In this document: piece after piece, positions 5,465 to 31,547 of the stretch | Numbering within the stretch: position 1 is the stretch's first letter | Layout of the letters: each line of letters starts with the position of its first letter | Source of the DNA: a virus | IMG/VR virus record: IMGVR_UViG_3300038701_001938 | Span: 1-35,087 of that record | DNA length: 35,087 nt | Direction: 5' to 3' (one strand) | Program-made: the position numbers and the translations under genes | Notes under the pieces: generated by a model | Told to the model about the DNA's origin: nothing | Database searches by the model: none | What the model saw: only the letters and a program-made list of their open reading frames with translations

Positions 5465-6667
5465 CTAGCGCGGATCGTCCACGCTATCGAGCCAGAACGG
5501 CGAATAATCATCATCTTCGAGGCGGCCCACCAGATCGCGCGGGAACCACGGCTCGCCCTCGGTGCCGTAGATCTCGCAGCACTCGGCGTAGAGCCGCAGG
5601 CAGGACCGGACCTCGAGCTCGGCTTTGCGGCCGATGGCCGAGATTGATGTCGTTTGAACGGTCGCCTCGGCGCCGATCGATTGCTCCTCGATCCCCGGCG
5701 CGGCCGCGAAATACATCACCTGCCGGCCGCGCACGTCGGGGATCCCTGACCGGCGCACGAACAGAAACCAGTTGTTCCAGATCTTCGGGGTCTGCCACGC
5801 GGCCACAATCTGCCGCACGTTCTCCTCGAGATCAGTTGTCTTGCGCGGGCGGCCTGCCGGCTTCTCGACCTTCTCGCCTTTCATGATCGGCTCGGCGTGC
5901 CGGAGTTTCAGGTCGGGCATTGCGGAGATCCCCATAAGGTAGAACCAGCCGGTCCGGTAATATCCGTTAAAGCGGAACGTGTCCGCGATCGCGCGGTTCG
6001 CCGGCTTGCCGGATGCTTTCAGATCCCACGTTTTCAAGTGAGTGATCCAGTCGCGGCCGAGGTAGTCCGGCCGGGCCTTGCACTTTATCCCGGTGTCGGG
6101 GTCCGTCCACAGGATCGAAACCTCGGCCATGCCGCCGCTGATCAGATCCGCGAGCTCCGGGTTCATGCGGATCCGCGCGGCGTCGCGCTGGATCTCGTCC
6201 CATTGCTTGCGCCCGATCCATGTCAGATCCGCGCACGCCTTCTCCCATTCATCGCGGGCAGCGTGCCACGTCTGCGGGCCGCCGATCGCCTCGACCCGCC
6301 GGGCGCGATCGAGCACTGTCTCGCCGGCCTTGGTCTGGGCCTCGCCCATGTTTTTCAGCCAGATCTTATAGTCGGTGTCTTTGAGGAGTGATCCCTCGGG
6401 CATGTCGTCGACATCCATTTCCCGAATGAACAGATCCTCGAACACGTCGGGCTCGAGCCGGGCGCAATGGTAGGCGCGGCCAAGTTTCATCGCGTCGGTT
6501 TCTTCGCGCTCCTCGCGCTGGGGGTTCATCCAGCTATCGGCCCAGAACGAGCTCGGCCCTTCCATCAGCTTTGTCAGGTCTCCGGATGAAACCCGGCGCT
6601 GCGCGAGGTATTCGGCAAACGAAAGGTCGATATAGATCCCGTCGGGCAGTTCGGTGCGGTCGGTCAT
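5465..6667 (-). CDS. RecE-like PD-(D/E)XK exonuclease (DUF3799 type, 400 aa)
   Basis: Predicted 5'-3' double-strand exonuclease that supplies single strands to the ERF protein. Family features are KLGRAYHCARLEP (residues 61-73, the conserved histidine), E182 in GMAEVSILW, D201 in KARPDYL, and the DLK triad at 215-217. It is followed by a helical FRFNGYYRTG segment where RecE has its conserved aromatic helix. An LKTW lies just before DLK, but spacing to the following helix favours D215/K217 as the metal and catalytic pair. A C-terminal ~130 residues unlike RecE (GRPRKTTD and beyond) is extra. The start overlaps the preceding gene by four bases. Confidence 0.85.
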   Translation of the reverse strand: MTDRTELPDGIYIDLSFAEYLAQRRVSSGDLTKLMEGPSSFWADSWMNPQREEREETDAMKLGRAYHCARLEPDVFEDLFIREMDVDDMPEGSLLKDTDYKIWLKNMGEAQTKAGETVLDRARRVEAIGGPQTWHAARDEWEKACADLTWIGRKQWDEIQRDAARIRMNPELADLISGGMAEVSILWTDPDTGIKCKARPDYLGRDWITHLKTWDLKASGKPANRAIADTFRFNGYYRTGWFYLMGISAMPDLKLRHAEPIMKGEKVEKPAGRPRKTTDLEENVRQIVAAWQTPKIWNNWFLFVRRSGIPDVRGRQVMYFAAAPGIEEQSIGAEATVQTTSISAIGRKAELEVRSCLRLYAECCEIYGTEGEPWFPRDLVGRLEDDDYSPFWLDSVDDPR

Positions 6668-6900
6668 TGTTCAATCTCCTGTTTCAGTTCTTCGCGGGTC
6701 TTGCGAAGGTCGGACCAACGCCCTTCGATCAGCATGTCGACAAGCGTGGATCCTCGGGTCTGTCGCCATGCGGCGCGAGCGATCCGGCAATCAGTGCTGC
6801 AAAACTCCTGATCTGCGCGGCTGGGGGTGAACCGGCCGCGTGAACCGGCCGGCCCTTTCGTGCACTTGTGCCATTTGCAGGTCTGCTCTGTCTTACGCAC
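6664..6900 (-). CDS. Cys-rich zinc-finger-like protein (78 aa)
   Basis: The start is GTG at 6900, overlapping the previous stop. Cysteines and a histidine sit as TCKWHKC near residue 8 and FCSTDCR near residue 33, a probable treble-clef or ribbon zinc site of the type seen in small phage and plasmid proteins ending in RAAWRQTRG. The rest is charged and helical. Coupling to the exonuclease gene suggests a role in the same recombination unit; function unknown. Confidence 0.68.
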   Translation of the reverse strand: MRKTEQTCKWHKCTKGPAGSRGRFTPSRADQEFCSTDCRIARAAWRQTRGSTLVDMLIEGRWSDLRKTREELKQEIEQ

Positions 6901-7207
6901 TTTGCGGCTCCTCGCTCTGGATCTCGTCGTCGCTCTCCTGATCTGCCAGCGCGTCGCGGATGGCGGGCAGGAGCTTCTCGCGGTATTCGTCGCGCAGCAG
7001 GCCGATGGTCGACAGGATCTCCGCGTCGGTGTCGTTCATCCGAAAGGCCGTGACCTCCGTTTGCACGGTGTCGAAATCATACTGCGCGCGACGCTCCAAG
7101 CTCCAAAAGAACAGGCTGACGCAGTTCCCGTTGTCTTTCATGGCGGGGCTCGCCTTGAAGTGCAGGCGGTTGTAGGAAACGGGATGGATGTTAAGTTGTG
7201 TGGACAT
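6893..7207 (-). CDS. Hypothetical protein (104 aa)
   Basis: Starts MSTQLNIHPVSYNRLHFK, with a GAGGAAAA ribosome-binding site. The sequence is a mixed N-terminal half (KDNGNCVSLFFWS) and an acidic helical C-terminal half (DEYREKLLPAIRDALAD). No domain recognised. The N-terminal strand-rich segment ahead of the helix could be a small single domain. It is the first gene after the 52-base gap that follows the LPD29 gene. Confidence 0.66.
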   Translation of the reverse strand: MSTQLNIHPVSYNRLHFKASPAMKDNGNCVSLFFWSLERRAQYDFDTVQTEVTAFRMNDTDAEILSTIGLLRDEYREKLLPAIRDALADQESDDEIQSEEPQSA

Positions 7208-7233
7208 TGGGTTTTCCTCTCTTTGGGGGTGGT

Positions 7234-7252
7234 GCGGGGCTGGGCGCCCCGC
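7234..7252 (-). other. Intergenic hairpin
   Basis: Perfect 7-bp arms GCGGGGC (7234-7240) and GCCCCGC (7246-7252), loop of five. It sits between the LPD29 gene and the gene downstream, with no T-run, so it is more likely a processing or attenuation structure than a full terminator. Confidence 0.55.
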
Positions 7253-7259
7253 GTGGTGA

Positions 7260-7916
7260 TCAGGCGGCCTCGATCGCCGGCATGGCGTCGGGCATCATCC
7301 GCCGGGCGGCCATTTCGTAAAGGTAGCAGTCGGCCATGTGCGGCGCCCGAACCGGCGCGGCGCTCTTGAACCGGCTGGCGTGGTGGAATTCGGTGACTTC
7401 GCCGGCCCGGATCGCGTCTGCGAGCTCGTCGTTCCACTTTGCGGCGTAAGCCTTCAAGACCCGATCTTTTGCCGGCTCGCTCAGGCTCCGGTTGGTAAAG
7501 ACGAAATCCGCCCCGAACGAAACCGGGACCGCGCCATTGTAGTCGGGGCCGGCGGCGGCGGCTGGAACGACGCCATTTCCCTCGGTGCCCCGCGTCTCGC
7601 GAAAGGCGGCCTCGCCGTTGGGGTAGAGCCATGCGCCGACGTTGTATTTCATGTCGCACATGCCGTCGAAACCGGATCCGGCGAAGGGGGCGATATAGGC
7701 GTCGACCAGCTTGGCGGTCGGTCCGTCGGTCCAGCTGACATCGATCGAGCTGCCGCCGGCGTAGATCTTCGACCGAACGCTGAATTTGGTGGTCGGAAAC
7801 TTGCGCTTCAAAAGGGCGCGGATCGCCTTCGCGGTGTCGGTGGTGCCGACGTGCGCGCTGCGCGCCGGGCGGGCTTTCCACTCGGCAAGGGCAGCTTTGT
7901 AAACGGCGTTGGTCAT
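7260..7916 (-). CDS. LPD29-domain protein (218 aa)
   Basis: Start chosen at ATG 7916, behind GGAGAT; the frame is open further up but only through the promoter. Residues about 25-90 match large polyvalent protein-associated domain 29: AIRALLKRKFPTTKFSVRSK, then GGSSIDVSWTDGPT, then GFDGMCDM. LPD domains were described as parts of large polyvalent proteins of phages and conjugative elements; their biochemistry is mostly unknown. Here the domain is in an early-type protein. The C-terminal part (SAAPVRAPHMADCYLYEMA) has no match. It is the first gene behind the promoter at 7935-7978, so it should be strongly expressed early. Confidence 0.75.
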   Translation of the reverse strand: MTNAVYKAALAEWKARPARSAHVGTTDTAKAIRALLKRKFPTTKFSVRSKIYAGGSSIDVSWTDGPTAKLVDAYIAPFAGSGFDGMCDMKYNVGAWLYPNGEAAFRETRGTEGNGVVPAAAAGPDYNGAVPVSFGADFVFTNRSLSEPAKDRVLKAYAAKWNDELADAIRAGEVTEFHHASRFKSAAPVRAPHMADCYLYEMAARRMMPDAMPAIEAA

Positions 7917-7934
7917 GTGTCGATCTCCTTTTCG

Positions 7935-7978
7935 GGTTGGTGCAATAGTTATAATAATCATTACCGGGCCGAGGTCAA
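7935..7978 (-). promoter_or_regulatory. Early promoter copy A
   Basis: Read on the minus strand: -35 TTGACC (7978-7973), 16-base spacer, -10 TATTAT (7956-7951), then a conserved TATTGCACCAACC leader before the LPD29 gene. One of three 44-bp blocks; 30 of 44 positions are identical in all three by my alignment. Unique to this copy, the -35 lies in the loop of a 7-bp hairpin (arms 7964-7970 and 7981-7987). Confidence 0.82.
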
Positions 7979-7992
7979 TAGGCCCGGCGGGA

Positions 7993-8331
7993 TTATTTTC
8001 GCCGGACTGCGAGCTCGGCGCCGCAAGCGATCATCCGGTCGACGAGCTGCTGCGTCGACAGGCTGGCCAGCGTTTCAATTTCGCAGGCAACGGGCGCCGC
8101 GACATCCTCGGCCTGCGGCATGCGCGGCCGCAGCTCGGCCTCGCTTTCGGCGATCTCGGTGTCTCCCCACTCCATCGCGGCGATGCGGTCGCGCAGGGGC
8201 TCGAGGAGCTTCCAGACGGCCGCATCATCGATCCGCATGCTGGCGGCGCTTTTCTGGATGTGGCCGAGCTGGTCGCGGGCGCGCTGAACGCGCGGCCCGT
8301 TGATGCGGTTGAATTCGTCGATCTTTGTCAT
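7993..8331 (-). CDS. Hypothetical early protein (112 aa)
   Basis: Start at ATG 8331, behind GGAGATCGACAC, an initiation region nearly identical to that of the LPD29 gene and the next gene upstream. The protein is helical and charged (MTKIDEFNRINGPRVQRA at the start), with an acidic middle (ESEAELRPRMP) and a C-terminus LVDRMIACGAELAV. No domain recognised. The stop lies just before promoter A, so the unit probably ends or is partly re-initiated there. Confidence 0.68.
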   Translation of the reverse strand: MTKIDEFNRINGPRVQRARDQLGHIQKSAASMRIDDAAVWKLLEPLRDRIAAMEWGDTEIAESEAELRPRMPQAEDVAAPVACEIETLASLSTQQLVDRMIACGAELAVRRK

Positions 8332-8353
8332 GTGTCGATCTCCTCTCTGGGGG

Positions 8354-8605
8354 TTAGTAAAGGTCGAGGGTGTCGTTCTCGACGTGGTAGGCGAGCCGCG
8401 CTTCTGCTGCCTCGCGTGCAACCTCGCTCTCGCGGCGCTCGAGGATCTCACGCTGTTCAGACAGAAGGCGCCACTTCACGTTGAGGATGCGTTCCTTGCT
8501 CTCGGCGGCGAGGCTGTCAGGGTTGAGGGCGTCGAGCTCCTTCTCGAGGTAGGTGATGTCGTCTTGCAGGACGCGGATGTTCTCGCGGATTTGGTCTATG
8601 TGCAT
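8354..8605 (-). CDS. Hypothetical coiled-coil early protein (83 aa)
   Basis: Almost wholly helical, with heptad-like repeats (IRVLQDDITYLEKELDAL and EQREILERRESEVARE). ATG at 8605 follows GGAGATCGAC. It is a likely dimeric coiled-coil protein with no enzymatic motif. It belongs to the unit driven by promoter B. Confidence 0.68.
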   Translation of the reverse strand: MHIDQIRENIRVLQDDITYLEKELDALNPDSLAAESKERILNVKWRLLSEQREILERRESEVAREAAEARLAYHVENDTLDLY

Positions 8606-8639
8606 GTCGATCTCCTTTCGGGCTGGTGGGCTTGGTGAC

Positions 8640-8658
8640 GCGGCCGGATCCCGGCCGC
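8640..8658 (-). other. Intergenic hairpin
   Basis: Perfect 8-bp arms GCGGCCGG (8640-8647) and CCGGCCGC (8651-8658) around a three-base loop, in the 63-base gap between two early genes. There is no T-run on the minus strand. It may be an RNA processing or differential-expression element. Confidence 0.55.
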
Positions 8659-8668
8659 GCTGCGAAGC

Positions 8669-9085
8669 TCACGCGGGGCTAAAGGTGATGTTGTTGTTCG
8701 GCGCCTTCTCGATCCGGTAAGCCTGATCTTTGATCAGGATCCGATCGCCGATCATTGCGCCCGCCAGATATTCCTTGGCATGCGCCTCGGCGGTGATCGA
8801 GACGCTCTTGCCGTAGGCCAGCGGGGTTCCGTCGTCGTCGAAGCAGATCCCGAAGAATTTGAACATCATGCCGTGCCGAATGGTGGGGAAGGGAACCGCA
8901 ATGCCCGGCGCGGCCTGACCCAAGTGCCGGCCGCCGTTGTCTGCCATCAGGGTCAGCTCCTCGGGGTTGTCGCTGATCAAGATCGCGTAGGCGGGCCAAT
9001 CAATCATGGTCATGTGCTGGCCCATGTCGGTGACGGTGCAGCCCCGGAAATCCATGCCGGCAAAATTGTGGAAAGCGTTGTTCAT
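8669..9085 (-). CDS. Hypothetical early protein (138 aa)
   Basis: Start at ATG 9085 behind GGAGAGAG; the longer frame would begin in the promoter. N-terminus MNNAFHNFAGMDFRGC, then mixed strand and helix with DNGGRHLGQAAPG and an MMFKFFGICFDDDGTP segment. The C-terminal part (IGDRILIKDQAYRIEKAP) looks like a small beta domain. No family recognised. It is the first gene behind promoter B, a place where phages often keep host-takeover genes; that role is inference. Confidence 0.7.
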   Translation of the reverse strand: MNNAFHNFAGMDFRGCTVTDMGQHMTMIDWPAYAILISDNPEELTLMADNGGRHLGQAAPGIAVPFPTIRHGMMFKFFGICFDDDGTPLAYGKSVSITAEAHAKEYLAGAMIGDRILIKDQAYRIEKAPNNNITFSPA

Positions 9086-9097
9086 GTCTCTCTCCTT

Positions 9098-9141
9098 GGT
9101 TGGTGCAATATACATAGTAATCATTATTGCAACGGGGTCAA
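9098..9141 (-). promoter_or_regulatory. Early promoter copy B
   Basis: Minus strand: -35 TTGACC (9141-9136), 16-base spacer, -10 TACTAT (9119-9114), then the TATTGCACCAACC leader. A GCAATA-N14-TATTGC dyad covers the -10, a possible repressor site. The TGA stop of the preceding gene (9140-9138) lies within the -35 element. Confidence 0.85.
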
Positions 9142-9332
9142 GAGGGGTCGAGAATTTTTTTCAGCCGGTCCAGCTCGCGGCCGTAGCGCATCAGCTCTGC
9201 CTTGGCGTCGCGCATGGCTTGGACCTGTGCGAAATTCGGGTTTTCGTTCCGGGCGAAATTCTCGATCACGGCGATCGAGATCGCGGTCGCTTCTTCGAAG
9301 GTCGGGGTCAGGTCGATGGTGTCGATGGTCAT
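9138..9332 (-). CDS. Hypothetical early protein (64 aa)
   Basis: Short helical protein (MTIDTIDLTPTFEEATAI at the start) with a charged C-terminal helix ending ELDRLKKILDPS. No domain recognised. The start overlaps the end of the gene upstream and its stop is embedded in promoter B. Confidence 0.62.
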   Translation of the reverse strand: MTIDTIDLTPTFEEATAISIAVIENFARNENPNFAQVQAMRDAKAELMRYGRELDRLKKILDPS

Positions 9333-9562
9333 TGCTTGTTTCCTTTCGTCAGGGTTTCAATTTTGCGGCGGATGGTGCGGGCCTCGCGCATGTATCGGTC
9401 GCGGTGCGCGGCATCGATCGCGATGTCGCTGGACACCCACGAGGGCCGGGCGCCGGTGCCGTATTGGGCGAGGGTGCGGTCGATCCTGTTTTGCGCGCGC
9501 TCGGCGCCGGCCTCGAGGATCTCGAGCTCCTGTCGCAGGTGGGTCAATTCGATCTGGTCCAT
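9329..9562 (-). CDS. Hypothetical coiled-coil early protein (77 aa)
   Basis: Starts MDQIELTHLRQELEILEA, a coiled-coil helix, and ends in a basic helix (YMREARTIRRKIETLT). The organisation is like that of the gene at 8354-8605, so the two may be distant copies of one coiled-coil type. ATG preceded by GGAGAT. Function unknown. Confidence 0.64.
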   Translation of the reverse strand: MDQIELTHLRQELEILEAGAERAQNRIDRTLAQYGTGARPSWVSSDIAIDAAHRDRYMREARTIRRKIETLTKGNKQ

Positions 9563-9574
9563 TTTGGGATCTCC

Positions 9575-9811
9575 TCAGTATTGGCGGAAGTAGAGCAGGG
9601 GTGCGGGGGCGCCGCATTTTTGCGTCGTGCTCATCGGGCGGCGTTCGCCGGGCGCCATGTCGGCGAACCGCTGGGCCTCGATGGGGGTCATGGGCAGGCC
9701 GAGGCGATCGGCGTCGGTGGCCTCGCAGGCCCGGCCGTTAAGCTCGTCCCATCCGATGAACCAGAAGCCCGGTGCGCCTGCGGCGCCGATTTCGATGTTG
9801 AAGCGTGCCAT
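9575..9811 (-). CDS. Hypothetical early protein (78 aa)
   Basis: MARFNIEIGAAGAPGFWFIG at the start suggests a beta-rich N-terminus, followed by ELNGRACEATDADRLGLP and a proline-rich end. No family recognised. It has an AAGGAGG-like ribosome-binding site. Second gene behind promoter C. Confidence 0.62.
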   Translation of the reverse strand: MARFNIEIGAAGAPGFWFIGWDELNGRACEATDADRLGLPMTPIEAQRFADMAPGERRPMSTTQKCGAPAPLLYFRQY

Positions 9812-9835
9812 TAGTGCTTTCCTCCTTGGATTTGT

Positions 9836-25495: not shown

Positions 25496-28009
25496 ATGGC
25501 AGAGGTTCGCAGATACTCGCGGCGCAATAGGATCTATACCGAGATCCAGCCGGATTACACGCCGGCCGCAGCTGAGGCCGCAAAGCAGTTCGACCAGATC
25601 CGCAAAGGCTTTGACGCCGGGATCAAGTTCCTCGAGCCGGCGGTTAAGCAGGAACAGACTATGCTCGGCGAACAGGAGGCGGCCGAGGCTTTCGAAAACG
25701 ACAGCTTCGAAATGCGCAAGCCGTTCTCAATTCGCGATGCGGCGTTCAATAAGACCGGCGAGCGCCTCGTCACGAACCGGGCCATGATCGAGCTCGACGA
25801 GGGGATCCGCGAGGCCATGCAGCGCGCCGATGGCAGTATGGGGCGCCTCGAGGGCGAGCTCGCCAAGGTGAACGGGCTCCTCGAGGAGCTGCCCGACATT
25901 CCCGGCCTGCGCACGCGCTGGATGGAGACGTTCGAGCGCGGGGCGGTTACGGCCCGGCGCCGCACGACCGAGCTCGCAGAGCGCCGCGCGATCGCTGCCC
26001 AAAGGCGCGCAGCTGCCGAGGCGGCGGCCGTGGCTGAGCAAGAGACGGCGCGGCTCGCGTTGATGTCTGGCAACCCCGAGGAGCTGGCGGCCGCGATATC
26101 CAGCGGGACCGACGCCCTCGCACAGTTCGGCCCGCGCGGCGAGTTCACGCTCAACGGCACGACCTACGAGGCGGATCCGTCTCGCGCCGGGGTCTATTCG
26201 GCCGGTCAGCTGGCCACGCTTTCGCAAGGCATGTCGCAACAGGCTTACGAGCTTTTCCTGCGCGCCGATTACGAACGCAGCGACAGCCCCGGCGAATGGG
26301 CGAGAGAGTTCGAAAGGACGGTTCTAAGCGGCAACGCTCCTTTGCCGCCTGACCGGGCGCTCGATCTCTTGTCGACGTTTGAGAGCAAGGCCCGGACCGA
26401 CGAGAACGCGCGGATCCGCGAGGAGAACCGCGTCGCGACCGAGCTGACCGCTGCCGCAGAGGAGCGGCTGAGCCCTTACGTCACGGCCGCAGAGAACGGC
26501 GTGCCGGTGGCCATGCCGGAGGACGAGCGCGCCGAGCTGTTTGAGCTCGTTTCTGGCAATGCGGATCTGACGCGGCAAGTGCAGCTGCAGCTCTCGGCGG
26601 CCGATACGATCGTCGAAATGACGGGCATGGGGCCGACCCAGCGGATCGAGTATATCGAGAGGATCCAGACACAGGCGGCCGAGGATGGCCGGATCGACGC
26701 CGAGGAGGCAAGCCAGATCCAGCTCCTCTCGAGCTACATGACGGCGGCCAAGAGCGCGATCACGCGGGAAAGTGTCGGGGTGACGGCGGCCGAACAGCTA
26801 TTCAGCTCGGGATCCATGCCGTCGGATGAAATGCTGGCTGAGATGTCGGCAGCCGCTCGGGGTCGGCCCGAGGTCGAGCGCGGTGTCGCAACTCTGCAGG
26901 ACGCGATCAGCCTGATCCAGTCGACCGAGGGCATGACCGGGGCCCAGCGCCGGGAAGTCTTGGAGGACATCGATGAACAGGTTTCGCGCTTGGCCTCTCG
27001 CGGTGGCGAGGTCGGGCTCGGGGCGCGGCTTCGCCTCGACGCATTGGAGCTGGCCGAGGCGCACTTGAGCGAGCTCGAGAAGCTCGCCGGATCCGACGTG
27101 ACGCGGTTCGCCTCGAAGATGGGGATCGAGCTCGAGCCGTTCCCGACCGACGCCGATGCAGGCCCGGCCGAGCTGGTGGCGGTGATCGCGGCCCGAACGA
27201 TGCAGGTGCAGGACGCGGCAAGCAATTTCGGGAACGATACGCCGGTTCCCCTATCTGCATCCGAACAGGCGGCCCTCGGAGAATACATGGTCGCAGCGCA
27301 GCCCAGCCAGCGCGTCGCGATTGTCGAACAGCTTTACAACAGCTTGCCGCGAGCCAAGGCCAATGCGATCCTCGACAGCATGGGCGAGACGACGCCGGCC
27401 GTTCGCACGGCGGCTCGGATTGTCGACAGCAACAAGCCGGCGGTGGCGACAATTCTCTCGGGCGTGGGCGTCACGCTGGGCGGCGATACGCCAACCGTGC
27501 GAGCTACGGCCGAGGCGAACACCTTGGGCGATTTCCTTGGCCAGCTCTCGCCCGCAGGCCGCACGCGCGTCATGGATGATGCGGTTCTCTATGCGCGCGG
27601 CCGCGCTGCGAGAGAGGGGCTGACCGAGATCCTTTTGGCCGACATCGAAAAGGGGATCGATATCGCCCTCGGAGCTGATCAGGATGGCGTCGGGGGGATC
27701 GAGGATCTCGGCCGGTTCGGCAAGGCGATCCTGCCGACCGGCGTTTCCGGCCGCGATGTCCGAAATGCGTTCATGGGCATGCAGGAAGCCGAGGCGTTCG
27801 ACCTGTTCAACGGGAACATGATGGGCGCCGACGGCGAGGCCATGACGACGCGCGAGGTCCAGCGATCGATCGCCGGTTTCTACCCAGACCCGAGCGATCC
27901 CGGCCGCTTGATCCCGGTCAATGACATGGGCGAGTATTTCCGCGTGCGCGGCCCTGACGGTGAAACTCTCGCCTCGTTCTCGATAGAGGAGCTCCTCGGC
28001 GATGGTTGA
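25496..28009 (+). CDS. Internal virion protein, gp15-like (837 aa)
   Basis: Long, helical, very acidic and Ala/Glu/Arg-rich ejection protein, consistent with gp15-like tube components, although sequence conservation in this family is low. It begins MAEVRRYSRRNRIYTEIQ and has long coiled stretches (TTELAERRAIAAQRRAAAE). No enzyme motif is evident. The stop overlaps the next gene by eight bases, so it is co-translated with the 1181-aa ejection protein. Confidence 0.75.
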   Translation: MAEVRRYSRRNRIYTEIQPDYTPAAAEAAKQFDQIRKGFDAGIKFLEPAVKQEQTMLGEQEAAEAFENDSFEMRKPFSIRDAAFNKTGERLVTNRAMIELDEGIREAMQRADGSMGRLEGELAKVNGLLEELPDIPGLRTRWMETFERGAVTARRRTTELAERRAIAAQRRAAAEAAAVAEQETARLALMSGNPEELAAAISSGTDALAQFGPRGEFTLNGTTYEADPSRAGVYSAGQLATLSQGMSQQAYELFLRADYERSDSPGEWAREFERTVLSGNAPLPPDRALDLLSTFESKARTDENARIREENRVATELTAAAEERLSPYVTAAENGVPVAMPEDERAELFELVSGNADLTRQVQLQLSAADTIVEMTGMGPTQRIEYIERIQTQAAEDGRIDAEEASQIQLLSSYMTAAKSAITRESVGVTAAEQLFSSGSMPSDEMLAEMSAAARGRPEVERGVATLQDAISLIQSTEGMTGAQRREVLEDIDEQVSRLASRGGEVGLGARLRLDALELAEAHLSELEKLAGSDVTRFASKMGIELEPFPTDADAGPAELVAVIAARTMQVQDAASNFGNDTPVPLSASEQAALGEYMVAAQPSQRVAIVEQLYNSLPRAKANAILDSMGETTPAVRTAARIVDSNKPAVATILSGVGVTLGGDTPTVRATAEANTLGDFLGQLSPAGRTRVMDDAVLYARGRAAREGLTEILLADIEKGIDIALGADQDGVGGIEDLGRFGKAILPTGVSGRDVRNAFMGMQEAEAFDLFNGNMMGADGEAMTTREVQRSIAGFYPDPSDPGRLIPVNDMGEYFRVRGPDGETLASFSIEELLGDG

Positions 28010-31000
28010 CCTGCGACAAGATCTTGCCTTGCCGGATATGCGCCCGGCTGCCGGCCGCACAACGTCGAATTGGGAAGGCGTGGTCGCGTCGTTCTGGAAC
28101 ACGCCGACCACCGTGTCGGGGATCCGGCGCGATAACGAGCTTGCCGCGCCGGTCATGGGGCGCCTGATCACGTCTCCGGATGGCCCGGATATGATGTATC
28201 GCGACGAAACCGGAGCCGAGGTGACGTTCTCCCCGAACATGCAACAGCGCATGTTTGACGACGACATTTCGCTCGATTTAATGCGCGATCTCTGGTCGGA
28301 GATCGAGGCCGGGGGCGCCGCGCCACCAATGCCATTCGAGGCATATCAGGAGCAATACAACGCAATCCTCGAGCGCCGTCGTTCCGAGTTCGAAGCGAAC
28401 GAGCGGATCATTGCGGCCTCGGAAAACCCTTTCCGCAACCGCCTGATCGGCGGCGTGGCCGGTGGCTTTGCCGACCCCGTGAACCTTGCGACGATCCCGC
28501 TGGCGGCGCCCGTGCGGCTCGGGGCGATGGGAACGGTCGCTTTCGAGGCCGCGCTCAACGCTTCGATCGAGGGCCTGTCGACCCCGGCGCGAAATGAATA
28601 TCTGCGCAGCATTGGGCAGGAGGAGGAGGACATCCTCGTGAACATGCTTGTCGGCGCGACCTTTGGTGGTGTGGTCGCCGGCGGGCTCCAGCTCGGTGGA
28701 GCTACGGCACGCGCGACCGGCCGGGCGCTGGATGTCCGCAACCCGGCGCGCGCCCTCGGCCGCGAAATGGACGCGATCCTCGACCAGCTCGACCCGGCAG
28801 CCGCAGATCTGGCGCGTGAAGCGTTCATGGCTGGATCTCGGGGCCTGCAGGATCCGCGCGCCCGTATGGAGGTTGCCGAGGCGCTGACGAATTCCGAGGA
28901 TCCGGAGATCGCAGCCTTTGCCGAGAGCGTTCTCAGGGACGCAGAGGACGAGGCTACGGCCACGACAGACCTTTCCCCCGCTGCCCGCACCGAGCACCTG
29001 CAGCGCGCGCAGGAGGCTTTCGAGGCGCTCGAGAGCGGCGGCGAGATCACAATGCCAGACCGGCCGGCCCGCGCCGTTCCCCGCGGCAGTCTTTTGGGCG
29101 GCAATCTCGAGGAGTTCGATCCGCGCGAGCTTGTCGTCGATCCGGAGCGATTTCAGTTCAAGTCCGAGGGCACCGGGCCGGAGGGGCTGACGGACAAGCT
29201 GACGGAAGTGACGGAATGGCAGCCTCGAGCGGCCGGCACGATCATTGTTTTCGAGGACATCAACGGCGTTCGGTTCGTGGCGGATGGCCACCAGCGCAGC
29301 GGCCTTGCCCGGCGCCTGATGGAAAGCGACCCGTCGCAGGACATCAAGCTCGCTGGTTTCGTGATGCGCGAGCGCGACGGCTGGACGGCTGAGCAAGTGC
29401 GGATGGAAGCGGCGCTCGTCAACATCATGCAGGCGGCCGATGGCATGACGCAGGCGATGGCGCGGGACGCGGCGCGGGTGCTGCGGGTTTCAGCCGAGGC
29501 GATCGAGCGGCTGCCGCGCGGGCCGGGGATCGCGCGTGCCCAAGCTCTCGCCAAGCTCGGAGACGATGCGTTTTCGCTGGTGATCAATGACGTGGTGCCC
29601 GATCGGTTCGCTGCGCTGGTGGGCAACCTGACCAGCGACCCGCGCCTGCAAATGGCATATATGCGGCTCCTAGAGCGCACCGGCCCCTCGAGCGAGGCTC
29701 AGGCCCGGAGCATACTCGAACAGGCCCAGCGGTCGCCCCTGACCGAGGAAGTCACCGAGGATCTGTTCGGCACGGAAGTCATTGCCGAGAGCCTCTATGT
29801 AGAGCGGGCCAAGGTTCTCGAGCGAGCCATGCAGTTGATGCGCGACGATCAGCGCACATTCCGCACGCTGACCGACCGGGCAAGCACGATCTCGGAGGCT
29901 GGGAACGAGCTCAACGAAATCACCAACAAGCAGATGCGCGAAATGATGGACACCGCGCTCGGAGCTGTTGACAAGCTGGCCTATCGGGCCGGCCCAATAT
30001 CGGAGGCCCTCGACGATGGCGCGAGACAATACAAGGAAACCGGCCGGCTCAAGGATGCAGCCCGAGCCGTCACAGATGCAATCCGAGCCGAGATTGAACG
30101 AAATGGTCTCGCTGGCGCAGAAGCTAGCCCTCGCGTCGGAGCTGCAGAACCTACGGGTTCGGGCACAAGAGCATCTGATCCAAACGAGGGGTTCGACGAC
30201 CCGATCGATGGCGCAGGAGCGAAGGATCAGATCCGAGCGACAAGGATAGACGCGAACGAGCGACCCGAGGAAGGCTTTAACTCCGACGAGGAGGCTCGGC
30301 GGGATCTCGGTCAGAGGGTATCTGCGGGCGCCACGCGCGACGAGATCGACACGCACCCGGCCGTTGTCAAGGCCATCGAGGACATGCTTGCGCGCCGCGA
30401 AAGCGCCACCAACCTCGACGAGGCATATGGCTCACCGCAATGGCACGAGGCGCGGGAATACGTTTTCCCGGCCGAGCAAATTGAAGGGACGGATTTCGAG
30501 GAGGTTGTGATCACCGGCACCGATGCGGCGATGGACGCATGGAAGGCGCGCGCCGAGGCGTTTGCCGGTCCGGAGGGGGCGGGGCGCAATCGTCGCATCA
30601 AGTTCCTGCTAGGGCCGCCGGCCGCCGGAAAGAGCACGATCGCAGAGGCGCTTGCCGCGCAGCAACGCTTTGCCATTGTCGACAGCGACGAGATCAAGAA
30701 AACTCTACCGGAGTTCGAGGGCGGGATCGGCGCGGCCGCCGTCCACTCGGAAAGCTCGGATCTTTCAAAGGCCATGTTTGCCGACATGCTGGACGAGGGC
30801 ACCGATATCATTTTTCCGAAAGTGGGTGACGATGTTAAATCGATCCGCAAGGTGATGGATCAGGCGCGCGCCGCCGGCTACACTGTCGAGCTCGTCAACA
30901 TGGCGGTCACGAGCGACAACGCTTATAACCGAATGATCGGCCGTTTTGTCACCAAGGGGCGTCTGATCCCACCGGATTATTTCGACACGATCGGCGAGAA

Positions 31001-31547
31001 GCCGAGCGCAACTTACAATGCACTGAAAGGAGAGGCCGATGGCTACGCGAACATCGACAACAACACAGGGTTCGGAGAGCCCTCGCCGGTCCTCGAAAGG
31101 TCCGAACGCAACAACCCTCTCGAAGGGTCTGACCTCGACATATACGAAAGTGACGCAGGAGGAGGGCGACCCGGTGACGGGCGAGCTGGCAGAGATCTTG
31201 AAGCGCCGGAAGGAACGGCGCCGGAAGGCTCGGGGCCAGTAATCGAGGAGACGCCGGCCGGATCTCAAATGCTGATGGATGGCGTCGATCCGATTACCAC
31301 GCGCGATAGGGTGCAGGCTGCGGCCGACAAGCCCCTTCTTGCCCCGACGCGGACAACCGACACCGAAATCGGCGGGCTGTTCGATGCGAGCGATCCGGCG
31401 CGGTATGACCTGTTTGATCAGGTGCCCGTCGGTGTCGAGCAGGTGGACGGCGAAACCGTTGTGCGCACGGTTTCCCGAAAGGATCTGGCCGACGAGCTGG
31501 ACGCCGATGATCTATTCGCGCAGCAAGTGGGGATCTGTATGACATGA
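28002..31547 (+). CDS. Ejection protein with ParB-like and zeta-toxin-like kinase domains (1181 aa)
   Basis: Polyvalent virion protein. Residues ~1-360: helical ejection part with a Gly-rich hydrophobic patch (NMLVGATFGGVVAGGLQLGG). Residues ~370-480: ParB/DdrB-like domain (ELVVDPERFQFK, then D428-GHQR-432). Residues ~862-1010: zeta-toxin-like P-loop kinase with Walker A GPPAAGKST (871-879), D894/D896 in VDSDEIKKTLPE and Arg pair R977/R981. Zeta enzymes phosphorylate UDP-sugars and block wall synthesis; that activity here is inference. The C-terminal ~100 residues (LMDGVDPITTRDRV; DLADELDADDLFAQQ) are again typical of this ejection protein. Residues ~672-749 and ~1013-1080 are linker-like and coincide with two overlapping ORFs. 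Confidence 0.85.
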   Translation: MVDLRQDLALPDMRPAAGRTTSNWEGVVASFWNTPTTVSGIRRDNELAAPVMGRLITSPDGPDMMYRDETGAEVTFSPNMQQRMFDDDISLDLMRDLWSEIEAGGAAPPMPFEAYQEQYNAILERRRSEFEANERIIAASENPFRNRLIGGVAGGFADPVNLATIPLAAPVRLGAMGTVAFEAALNASIEGLSTPARNEYLRSIGQEEEDILVNMLVGATFGGVVAGGLQLGGATARATGRALDVRNPARALGREMDAILDQLDPAAADLAREAFMAGSRGLQDPRARMEVAEALTNSEDPEIAAFAESVLRDAEDEATATTDLSPAARTEHLQRAQEAFEALESGGEITMPDRPARAVPRGSLLGGNLEEFDPRELVVDPERFQFKSEGTGPEGLTDKLTEVTEWQPRAAGTIIVFEDINGVRFVADGHQRSGLARRLMESDPSQDIKLAGFVMRERDGWTAEQVRMEAALVNIMQAADGMTQAMARDAARVLRVSAEAIERLPRGPGIARAQALAKLGDDAFSLVINDVVPDRFAALVGNLTSDPRLQMAYMRLLERTGPSSEAQARSILEQAQRSPLTEEVTEDLFGTEVIAESLYVERAKVLERAMQLMRDDQRTFRTLTDRASTISEAGNELNEITNKQMREMMDTALGAVDKLAYRAGPISEALDDGARQYKETGRLKDAARAVTDAIRAEIERNGLAGAEASPRVGAAEPTGSGTRASDPNEGFDDPIDGAGAKDQIRATRIDANERPEEGFNSDEEARRDLGQRVSAGATRDEIDTHPAVVKAIEDMLARRESATNLDEAYGSPQWHEAREYVFPAEQIEGTDFEEVVITGTDAAMDAWKARAEAFAGPEGAGRNRRIKFLLGPPAAGKSTIAEALAAQQRFAIVDSDEIKKTLPEFEGGIGAAAVHSESSDLSKAMFADMLDEGTDIIFPKVGDDVKSIRKVMDQARAAGYTVELVNMAVTSDNAYNRMIGRFVTKGRLIPPDYFDTIGEKPSATYNALKGEADGYANIDNNTGFGEPSPVLERSERNNPLEGSDLDIYESDAGGGRPGDGRAGRDLEAPEGTAPEGSGPVIEETPAGSQMLMDGVDPITTRDRVQAAADKPLLAPTRTTDTEIGGLFDASDPARYDLFDQVPVGVEQVDGETVVRTVSRKDLADELDADDLFAQQVGICMT
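30016..30249 (+). CDS. Overlapping +1-frame ORF before the kinase domain (77 aa)
   Basis: Lies wholly inside the ejection-protein gene, one frame ahead. ATG 30016 has GGAGG nine bases upstream. From 30103 on, about 34 of 48 codons end in G/C, against 23 of 49 in the main frame (hand counts), so this frame carries the usual coding bias. The product is Gln/Arg-rich with a helical stretch (MVSLAQKLALASELQNLRVR) and a basic end. No family recognised. It could be an overprinted gene or a remnant captured with the kinase; a chance open frame is not excluded. Confidence 0.42.
   Translation: MARDNTRKPAGSRMQPEPSQMQSEPRLNEMVSLAQKLALASELQNLRVRAQEHLIQTRGSTTRSMAQERRIRSERQG
31039..31242 (+). CDS. Overlapping +1-frame ORF after the kinase domain (67 aa)
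   Basis: Inside the ejection-protein gene, one frame ahead, starting where the kinase domain ends. AAAGGAGAGG lies directly before ATG 31039 (AGGAG six bases away), the best internal ribosome-binding site I saw. In 31130-31242 about 28 of 34 codons end in G/C, against roughly 16 of 34 in the main frame. The product has a Ser/Thr-rich N-terminus and a helical, very basic C-terminus (GELAEILKRRKERRRKARGQ). It resembles a small nucleic-acid-binding or antidote protein in general build, but no family is recognised. Confidence 0.52.
   Translation: MATRTSTTTQGSESPRRSSKGPNATTLSKGLTSTYTKVTQEEGDPVTGELAEILKRRKERRRKARGQ

Follow-up and report, generated by a model that had tools for sequence, protein, structure and literature searches.

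Evidence for two small genes nested in the +1 frame of a phage ejection-type gene, each linked to an adjoining module

A modular host gene and its two nested frames

The window analyzed here is IMG/VR virus record IMGVR_UViG_3300038701_001938, positions 1 to 35,087 (35,087 bp), and our subject is two small open reading frames (ORFs) that lie in the same +1 frame inside one large gene. The host gene (28002..31547, plus strand, as are all features below unless noted) is an open frame for a large protein of the ejection/polyvalent type, 1181 residues long, with matches to phrog_10691 and Zeta_toxin. ORF1 (30016..30249) would encode 77 residues and is preceded by the Shine-Dalgarno (SD) site GGAGG (30002..30006); ORF2 (31039..31242) would encode 67, and is preceded by the SD site AAGGAG (31027..31032). 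The coordinates, frame and stops reported in a first-pass annotation of this DNA are exact, and both of the SD sites that it reported are also conserved in relatives.

The host protein is modular. Its core (29127..30089, residues 376-696), conserved across relatives, includes an ADGHQR (ParB/sulfiredoxin-like) motif, and the phrog_10691 match covers residues 381-734. The core has no Pfam or PDB match, and the ParB-like label is taken solely from the motif. Next comes a zeta-type kinase module (30600..31034, residues 867-1011) with the Walker A motif GPPAAGKS. The kinase matches PF06414 with 64.4 bits, for a gathering score of 22.3 (E-value 1.2e-17), and the zeta toxin structure 1gvn in the PDB with an E-value of 0.0018. 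Across 13 relatives GxPAxGKS, D30, D32, R113, R117, and R123 are invariant, so that the module has the family score, the Walker A motif, and the conserved acidic and arginine residues of a zeta toxin. Past the insert formed by the kinase and ORF2, a conserved C-terminal tail (31400..31544) resumes, and it shares the motif DLFDxVPVGxExVDG...TVSRxDLxDE with the C-terminus of gene 8 of phage SI2. In SI2, the tail follows directly after the core, without a kinase.

SI2 gene 8 aligns to 40% of the host protein with 55% identity. The host gene sits between a homolog of the head protein phrog_992 and a homolog of the virion structural protein phrog_684, the latter with 58% identity to SI2 and about 29% to phiV10, and a large protein is found at the equivalent position in both SI2 and phiV10. 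From this synteny we infer that the host protein is an ejection protein. The slot that the kinase occupies holds in relatives either a zeta kinase, a module similar to Tas1 (6ox6, E-value 1.8e-6), an ART-PolyVal domain adjoining the kinase, or nothing. Tas1 is a (p)ppApp synthetase toxin, and the zeta kinase, Tas1-like, and ART-PolyVal modules are all toxin-like. The ART-PolyVal case is locus L041, in which a single ejection-type protein (open frame 5512-9426) carries both a zeta-like kinase and the ART-PolyVal domain. A polyvalent protein combines at least two effector-type domains in one phage protein; here the zeta domain is found, and the ParB-like core is recognized by the ADGHQR motif only.

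Frame-specific conservation of ORF1 and ORF2

We collected relatives using profiles of the neighboring structural protein, the core, and the kinase (loci L005-L018, L028-L119, and L124-L203), and annotated phage records were added to them. Since the loci share ancestry and branches recur among the pairwise tests, we treat p-values as descriptive and base the conclusion on the agreement among different kinds of evidence.

The first-pass annotation had proposed that the +1 frame carries the real coding bias around both ORFs. We reproduce its values of GC content at third codon positions (GC3), which are 0.71 (30103-30249) and 0.82 (31130-31242) in the +1 frame, and 0.47 in the main frame in both segments. 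The high +1 GC3 alone is uninformative, because the third position of the +1 frame is the first position of the main frame, and main-frame GC at first positions is 0.66-0.73 throughout the host gene. We therefore reject it as evidence for the ORFs. What does stand from the proposal is that main-frame GC3 drops, from 0.78 upstream of ORF1 to 0.49 inside it; this is the real compositional signal. In windows of 60 codons, main-frame GC3 goes down to 0.45 at ORF1 (mean 0.79, standard deviation 0.10), a value lower than anywhere else in the seven scanned ORFs except 8780-9814. That long ORF on the plus strand has a GC3 of 0.35-0.45 over much of its length; it is probably no gene, possibly lying antisense to minus-strand genes.

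How surprising are the open frames themselves? If main-frame codons are resampled according to the codon usage of the gene itself, the probability of an uninterrupted +1 frame is 0.24 for ORF1 and 0.73 for ORF2. Thus the window by itself does not exclude chance open frames, and it is the comparison with related sequences that we take to settle the matter. Over 26 ORF1 loci, the product of the open-frame probabilities is about 1e-33, a descriptive figure given that the loci are related.

For ORF1, the comparative signal is strong. SI2 carries a +1 ORF that aligns with ORF1 end to end (53%, E-value 6e-15). A profile of ORF1 finds it in 93 of 104 core-bearing homologous loci, in the +1 frame every time; this count includes some of the profile seeds, and loci fetched later with the kinase carry ORF1 too. 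Main-frame synonymous divergence (pS) drops by half, from 0.51 in the flank upstream to 0.26 within ORF1, with a lower value in ORF1 in 25 of 26 pairs, and a sliding profile of the divergence has a sharp trough that sits exactly on ORF1. In the linker half of ORF1, the +1 protein is better conserved (0.61) than the main-frame protein (0.52) or the +2 translation (0.44), and in the flank the order is reversed (main 0.72 vs. +1 0.40). An SD site of at least 4 nt precedes 46 of the 47 distinct ORF1 starts, compared with 189 of 1678 other +1 ATGs (11%). The open frame is thus conserved beyond what main-frame constraint accounts for, as expected of an overprinted gene. The predicted structure, of moderate confidence, has a basic flexible N-terminus and a long helix at residues 24-76. 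All in all, ORF1 is almost certainly a real gene.

There are particular cases. The Prochlorococcus phage P-SCSP1a has no ORF1, and its +1 frame is riddled with stops. In L042 (5527-7317), the host frame is broken upstream of ORF1, by a sequencing error or a real frameshift, and ORF1 is intact downstream. Short ORF1-like +1 ORFs (profile E-values from 6e-4 to 0.57) seem to occur in L112 (6755-7075), L114 (6686-7042), and L115 (6905-7135), whose hosts are giant core-bearing proteins in Rhodobacteraceae genomes; the nested ORF1 may extend beyond podovirus ejection proteins. Programmed frameshifting was considered as a general route into the +1 frame and rejected, since in L028-L036, L040, L041, and L043 that frame opens no more than one codon ahead of the ATG, which a good SD site precedes.

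ORF2 starts at the terminal ADGY motif of the kinase. In the first set of relatives, each of the 29 complete loci with a kinase has it, and no locus without a kinase does. Of the 80 loci fetched with the kinase, 74 have at the same spot the start of a +1 ORF 40 codons or longer; of the six that do not, two are on truncated contigs. In the family, main-frame pS is 0.52 over the kinase and only 0.36 over ORF2, and the sliding profile has its second trough there. SD sites precede 53 of 61 ORF2 starts, compared with the same 11% of control ATGs. The window copy is matched by a profile built without the window (E-value 3.2e-9). The kinase frame partly dictates the first residues of ORF2, and once those are removed the general ORF2 profile gives no reportable match to the window copy; on a subfamily profile, the body of the window ORF2 outscores 2000 of 2000 shuffles. 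The only pair close enough to measure constraint on the window copy itself, with L041, has a pS of 0.82 going to 0.77, so that constraint is hardly visible, and in the ORF2 body the +1 identity (0.37) is not above that of the main frame (0.44), with 3 stops vs. 65 in the +2 frame. For these reasons, the case for the window copy is one of position, SD site, and profile. The predicted structure, with low confidence, is mostly flexible with a C-terminal helix at residues 48-64.

By these comparisons, ORF2 evolves faster than ORF1. We consider the ORF2 family very probably real, and its copy in the window likely to be functional; conservation of the open frame beyond main-frame constraint is found at the level of the family, and more weakly for the window copy. 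In neither ORF family do the relatives present the stop-broken +1 frames or the lost synonymous constraint that the first-pass annotation had named as signs against genes. Its proposal that both ORFs are overprinted coding genes is borne out by frame conservation, synonymous constraint (for ORF2, in the relatives), and SD sites. A third +1 ORF of 87 residues (31279-31542), which stops just short of the host-gene stop, has no counterpart seen in the relatives and is probably due to chance.

Linkage of each small gene to a module

To count linkage, we reduced the relatives at 90% identity, which leaves 84 complete genes. ORF1 is present in 72 of the 76 genes with the core and in none of the 8 without it. 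ORF2 is present in 44 of the 47 genes with the kinase and in none of the 37 without it, which is the linkage of a small gene to a toxin gene seen in toxin-antitoxin systems. By this comparison the two links are dissociable, ORF1 going with the core and ORF2 with the kinase. ORF1 accompanies the ParB-like core whatever comes next, be it a kinase, a Tas1-like synthetase, or nothing. Because it is present without a kinase in SI2 and in 33 non-redundant kinase-less genes, and is missing from kinase genes outside the ParB-like family, ORF1 belongs to the ejection-protein core.

The three kinase genes without ORF2 are L137, L138, and L189 (with its near-duplicate L190). In these four loci, the gene goes no further than the kinase. 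The following gene lies one nucleotide away, still in the +1 frame and without overlap, and its N-terminus is ORF2-like. With phmmer, these N-termini have E-values of 5e-6 to 2e-5 against the ORF2 set, weakening to 0.003-0.01 when the comparison takes in all six-frame pieces. The L138 kinase is part of a fusion with a portal protein, and the L189 protein that begins with the ORF2-like sequence has an ADP-ribosyltransferase domain. The existence of ORF2-like sequence as a separate next gene makes it plausible that a cassette of kinase plus ORF2 was carried into the ejection gene.

Genes with the Tas1-like module show a different pattern. A milder main-frame trough (pS about 0.25) is seen in L028-L034, L043, L076, L083, L086, and L103, about 345-390 codons past the ORF1 anchor, where a conserved peptide resembling STRKNLxxDTS is encoded, and no conserved +1 or +2 ORF accounts for this trough. 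A long antisense open frame at the Tas1-like module was discarded as a candidate partner, as it needs only a shortage of Tyr, His, and Gln codons.

A possible holding or antidote role

What could two out-of-frame genes do for one large virion protein? We propose that ribosomes start on both internally, each small gene having its own ribosome-binding site within the ejection/polyvalent gene, and that each small protein would bind its neighboring module in the virion-producing cell. The bound module would be kept inactive, or fit for packaging, until assembly, the small protein acting as an antidote or a holding chaperone, and the large protein alone would enter the next host. With the partner written into the 3′ end of the module DNA, module swaps between phages would bring the matching partner along. 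The comparison shows that the genes exist, where they start, that selection acts on their frame, and that they are linked to modules; we infer translation in the cell, binding, neutralization, and absence from the virion. We give this holding or antidote role a probability of about 0.5.

That each ORF is strictly linked to one module is a reason to think that its product binds this module, and the toxin-like modules in the slot give the producing cell a reason to need protection. The structure models, small proteins with a flexible part plus a helix, fit binding partners. A narrower version, that effector modules are self-contained cassettes with the antidote out of frame inside the module DNA, ORF2 acting against the kinase and ORF1 guarding the core, we hold only tentatively.

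Several observations weigh against the proposal. Neither small protein matches any Pfam, PHROG, or PADLOC family, or any known antitoxin or immunity family, so ORF2 does not fall in a known antitoxin family as a type II antitoxin would. The Tas1-like module has no conserved +1 or +2 partner, and with such a module lacking a visible nested partner there is no universal rule of one antidote per toxin. The ParB-like core that ORF1 accompanies is not known to be toxic. The fusion in L189 suits docking as well as it does an antidote, and the slight constraint between the window and L041 is a further point on this side.

The main rival has the small proteins as docking or packaging adaptors, which would load the module into the procapsid or hold it unfolded for tail passage, with no toxicity to neutralize. 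Module linkage is equally expected from adaptors, and an adaptor would not require the partner of ORF1 to be a toxin. Also in its favor, the ORF2-like segment begins another protein in L137, L138, L189, and L190, as a docking tag would, and L138 joins the kinase to the portal. On the other hand, ORF2 is missing where the kinase is missing, though the large protein is still packaged there, and the toxin-like slot favors protection. We judge docking unlikely overall, and less so than the other alternatives. One of these is that both are independent genes housed in linker DNA that tolerates them, and that what they do, for example in late regulation or host take-over, is unrelated to the adjoining module. 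The two ORFs do fall largely where the host protein has poorly conserved linkers, and the basic N-terminus of ORF1 could bind nucleic acid; the strict and dissociable linkage over 84 genes makes this reading quite improbable.

The first-pass annotation had suggested the capture into the ejection gene of a whole toxin neighborhood of small gene, kinase, and small gene. The tie between ORF2 and the kinase, which act as one cassette, agrees with one half of it. ORF1, which goes with the core and not with the kinase, already refutes the other half, and the capture of the whole is very improbable. Sought as stand-alone genes in annotated phages and plasmids, the small proteins turned up only as the nested ORF1 of SI2. 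Least credible of all is that these are not genes, and that chance open frames, or an RNA or DNA element behind the synonymous constraint, explain the observations. The window's open frames are indeed unsurprising, but that reading has to contend with the joint probability over the ORF1 loci, with protein-level conservation specific to the +1 and not the +2 frame, with the SD sites at the starts, and with the loci in which ORF2-like sequence forms a reading frame of its own.

Small phage genes nested in the +1 frame of another gene have a precedent in lambda Rz/Rz1, lysis genes whose products work together. The difference is that here two unrelated families lie in one virion-protein gene, each tied to an exchangeable module. 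Polyvalent proteins (Iyer et al. 2017, PMC5512222) are large proteins of phages that are predicted to accompany the DNA into the host. Their swappable effector domains include ParB-like, RelA/SpoT, zeta-type kinase, and ART domains, and the slot contents of the host gene match that concept. The text of that paper never mentions overlapping frames or nested partners (the word "overlap" has 0 occurrences); our literature search covered open-license papers, and such an arrangement may have been described elsewhere. As with zeta toxins (PF06414) and their epsilon-type antitoxins, a zeta-family kinase is here linked to a small partner gene, but the partner is out of frame within the same gene, at the 3′ end of the kinase, and has no antitoxin family match. 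Temperate phages also encode MuF polymorphic toxins (PMC5576092, PMC12226406), which have a swappable toxic domain and, in that family, immunity proteins able to counteract it; in our case the variable module lies inside the protein, and its candidate partner overlaps it out of frame.

The two families are unannotated and unmatched in Pfam and PHROGs, and are widespread in many, mostly environmental, IMG/VR phage contigs. As a comparative case for nested genes in tailed phages they are unusually clean, and they suggest that the genes of polyvalent and ejection proteins should be re-annotated with out-of-frame partners in mind. Their presence tracks the module both ways, which leads to a simple testable prediction of how the producing cell could survive making toxin-like packaged proteins. 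If the self-contained cassettes are real, toxin and antidote would be inseparable when modules recombine.

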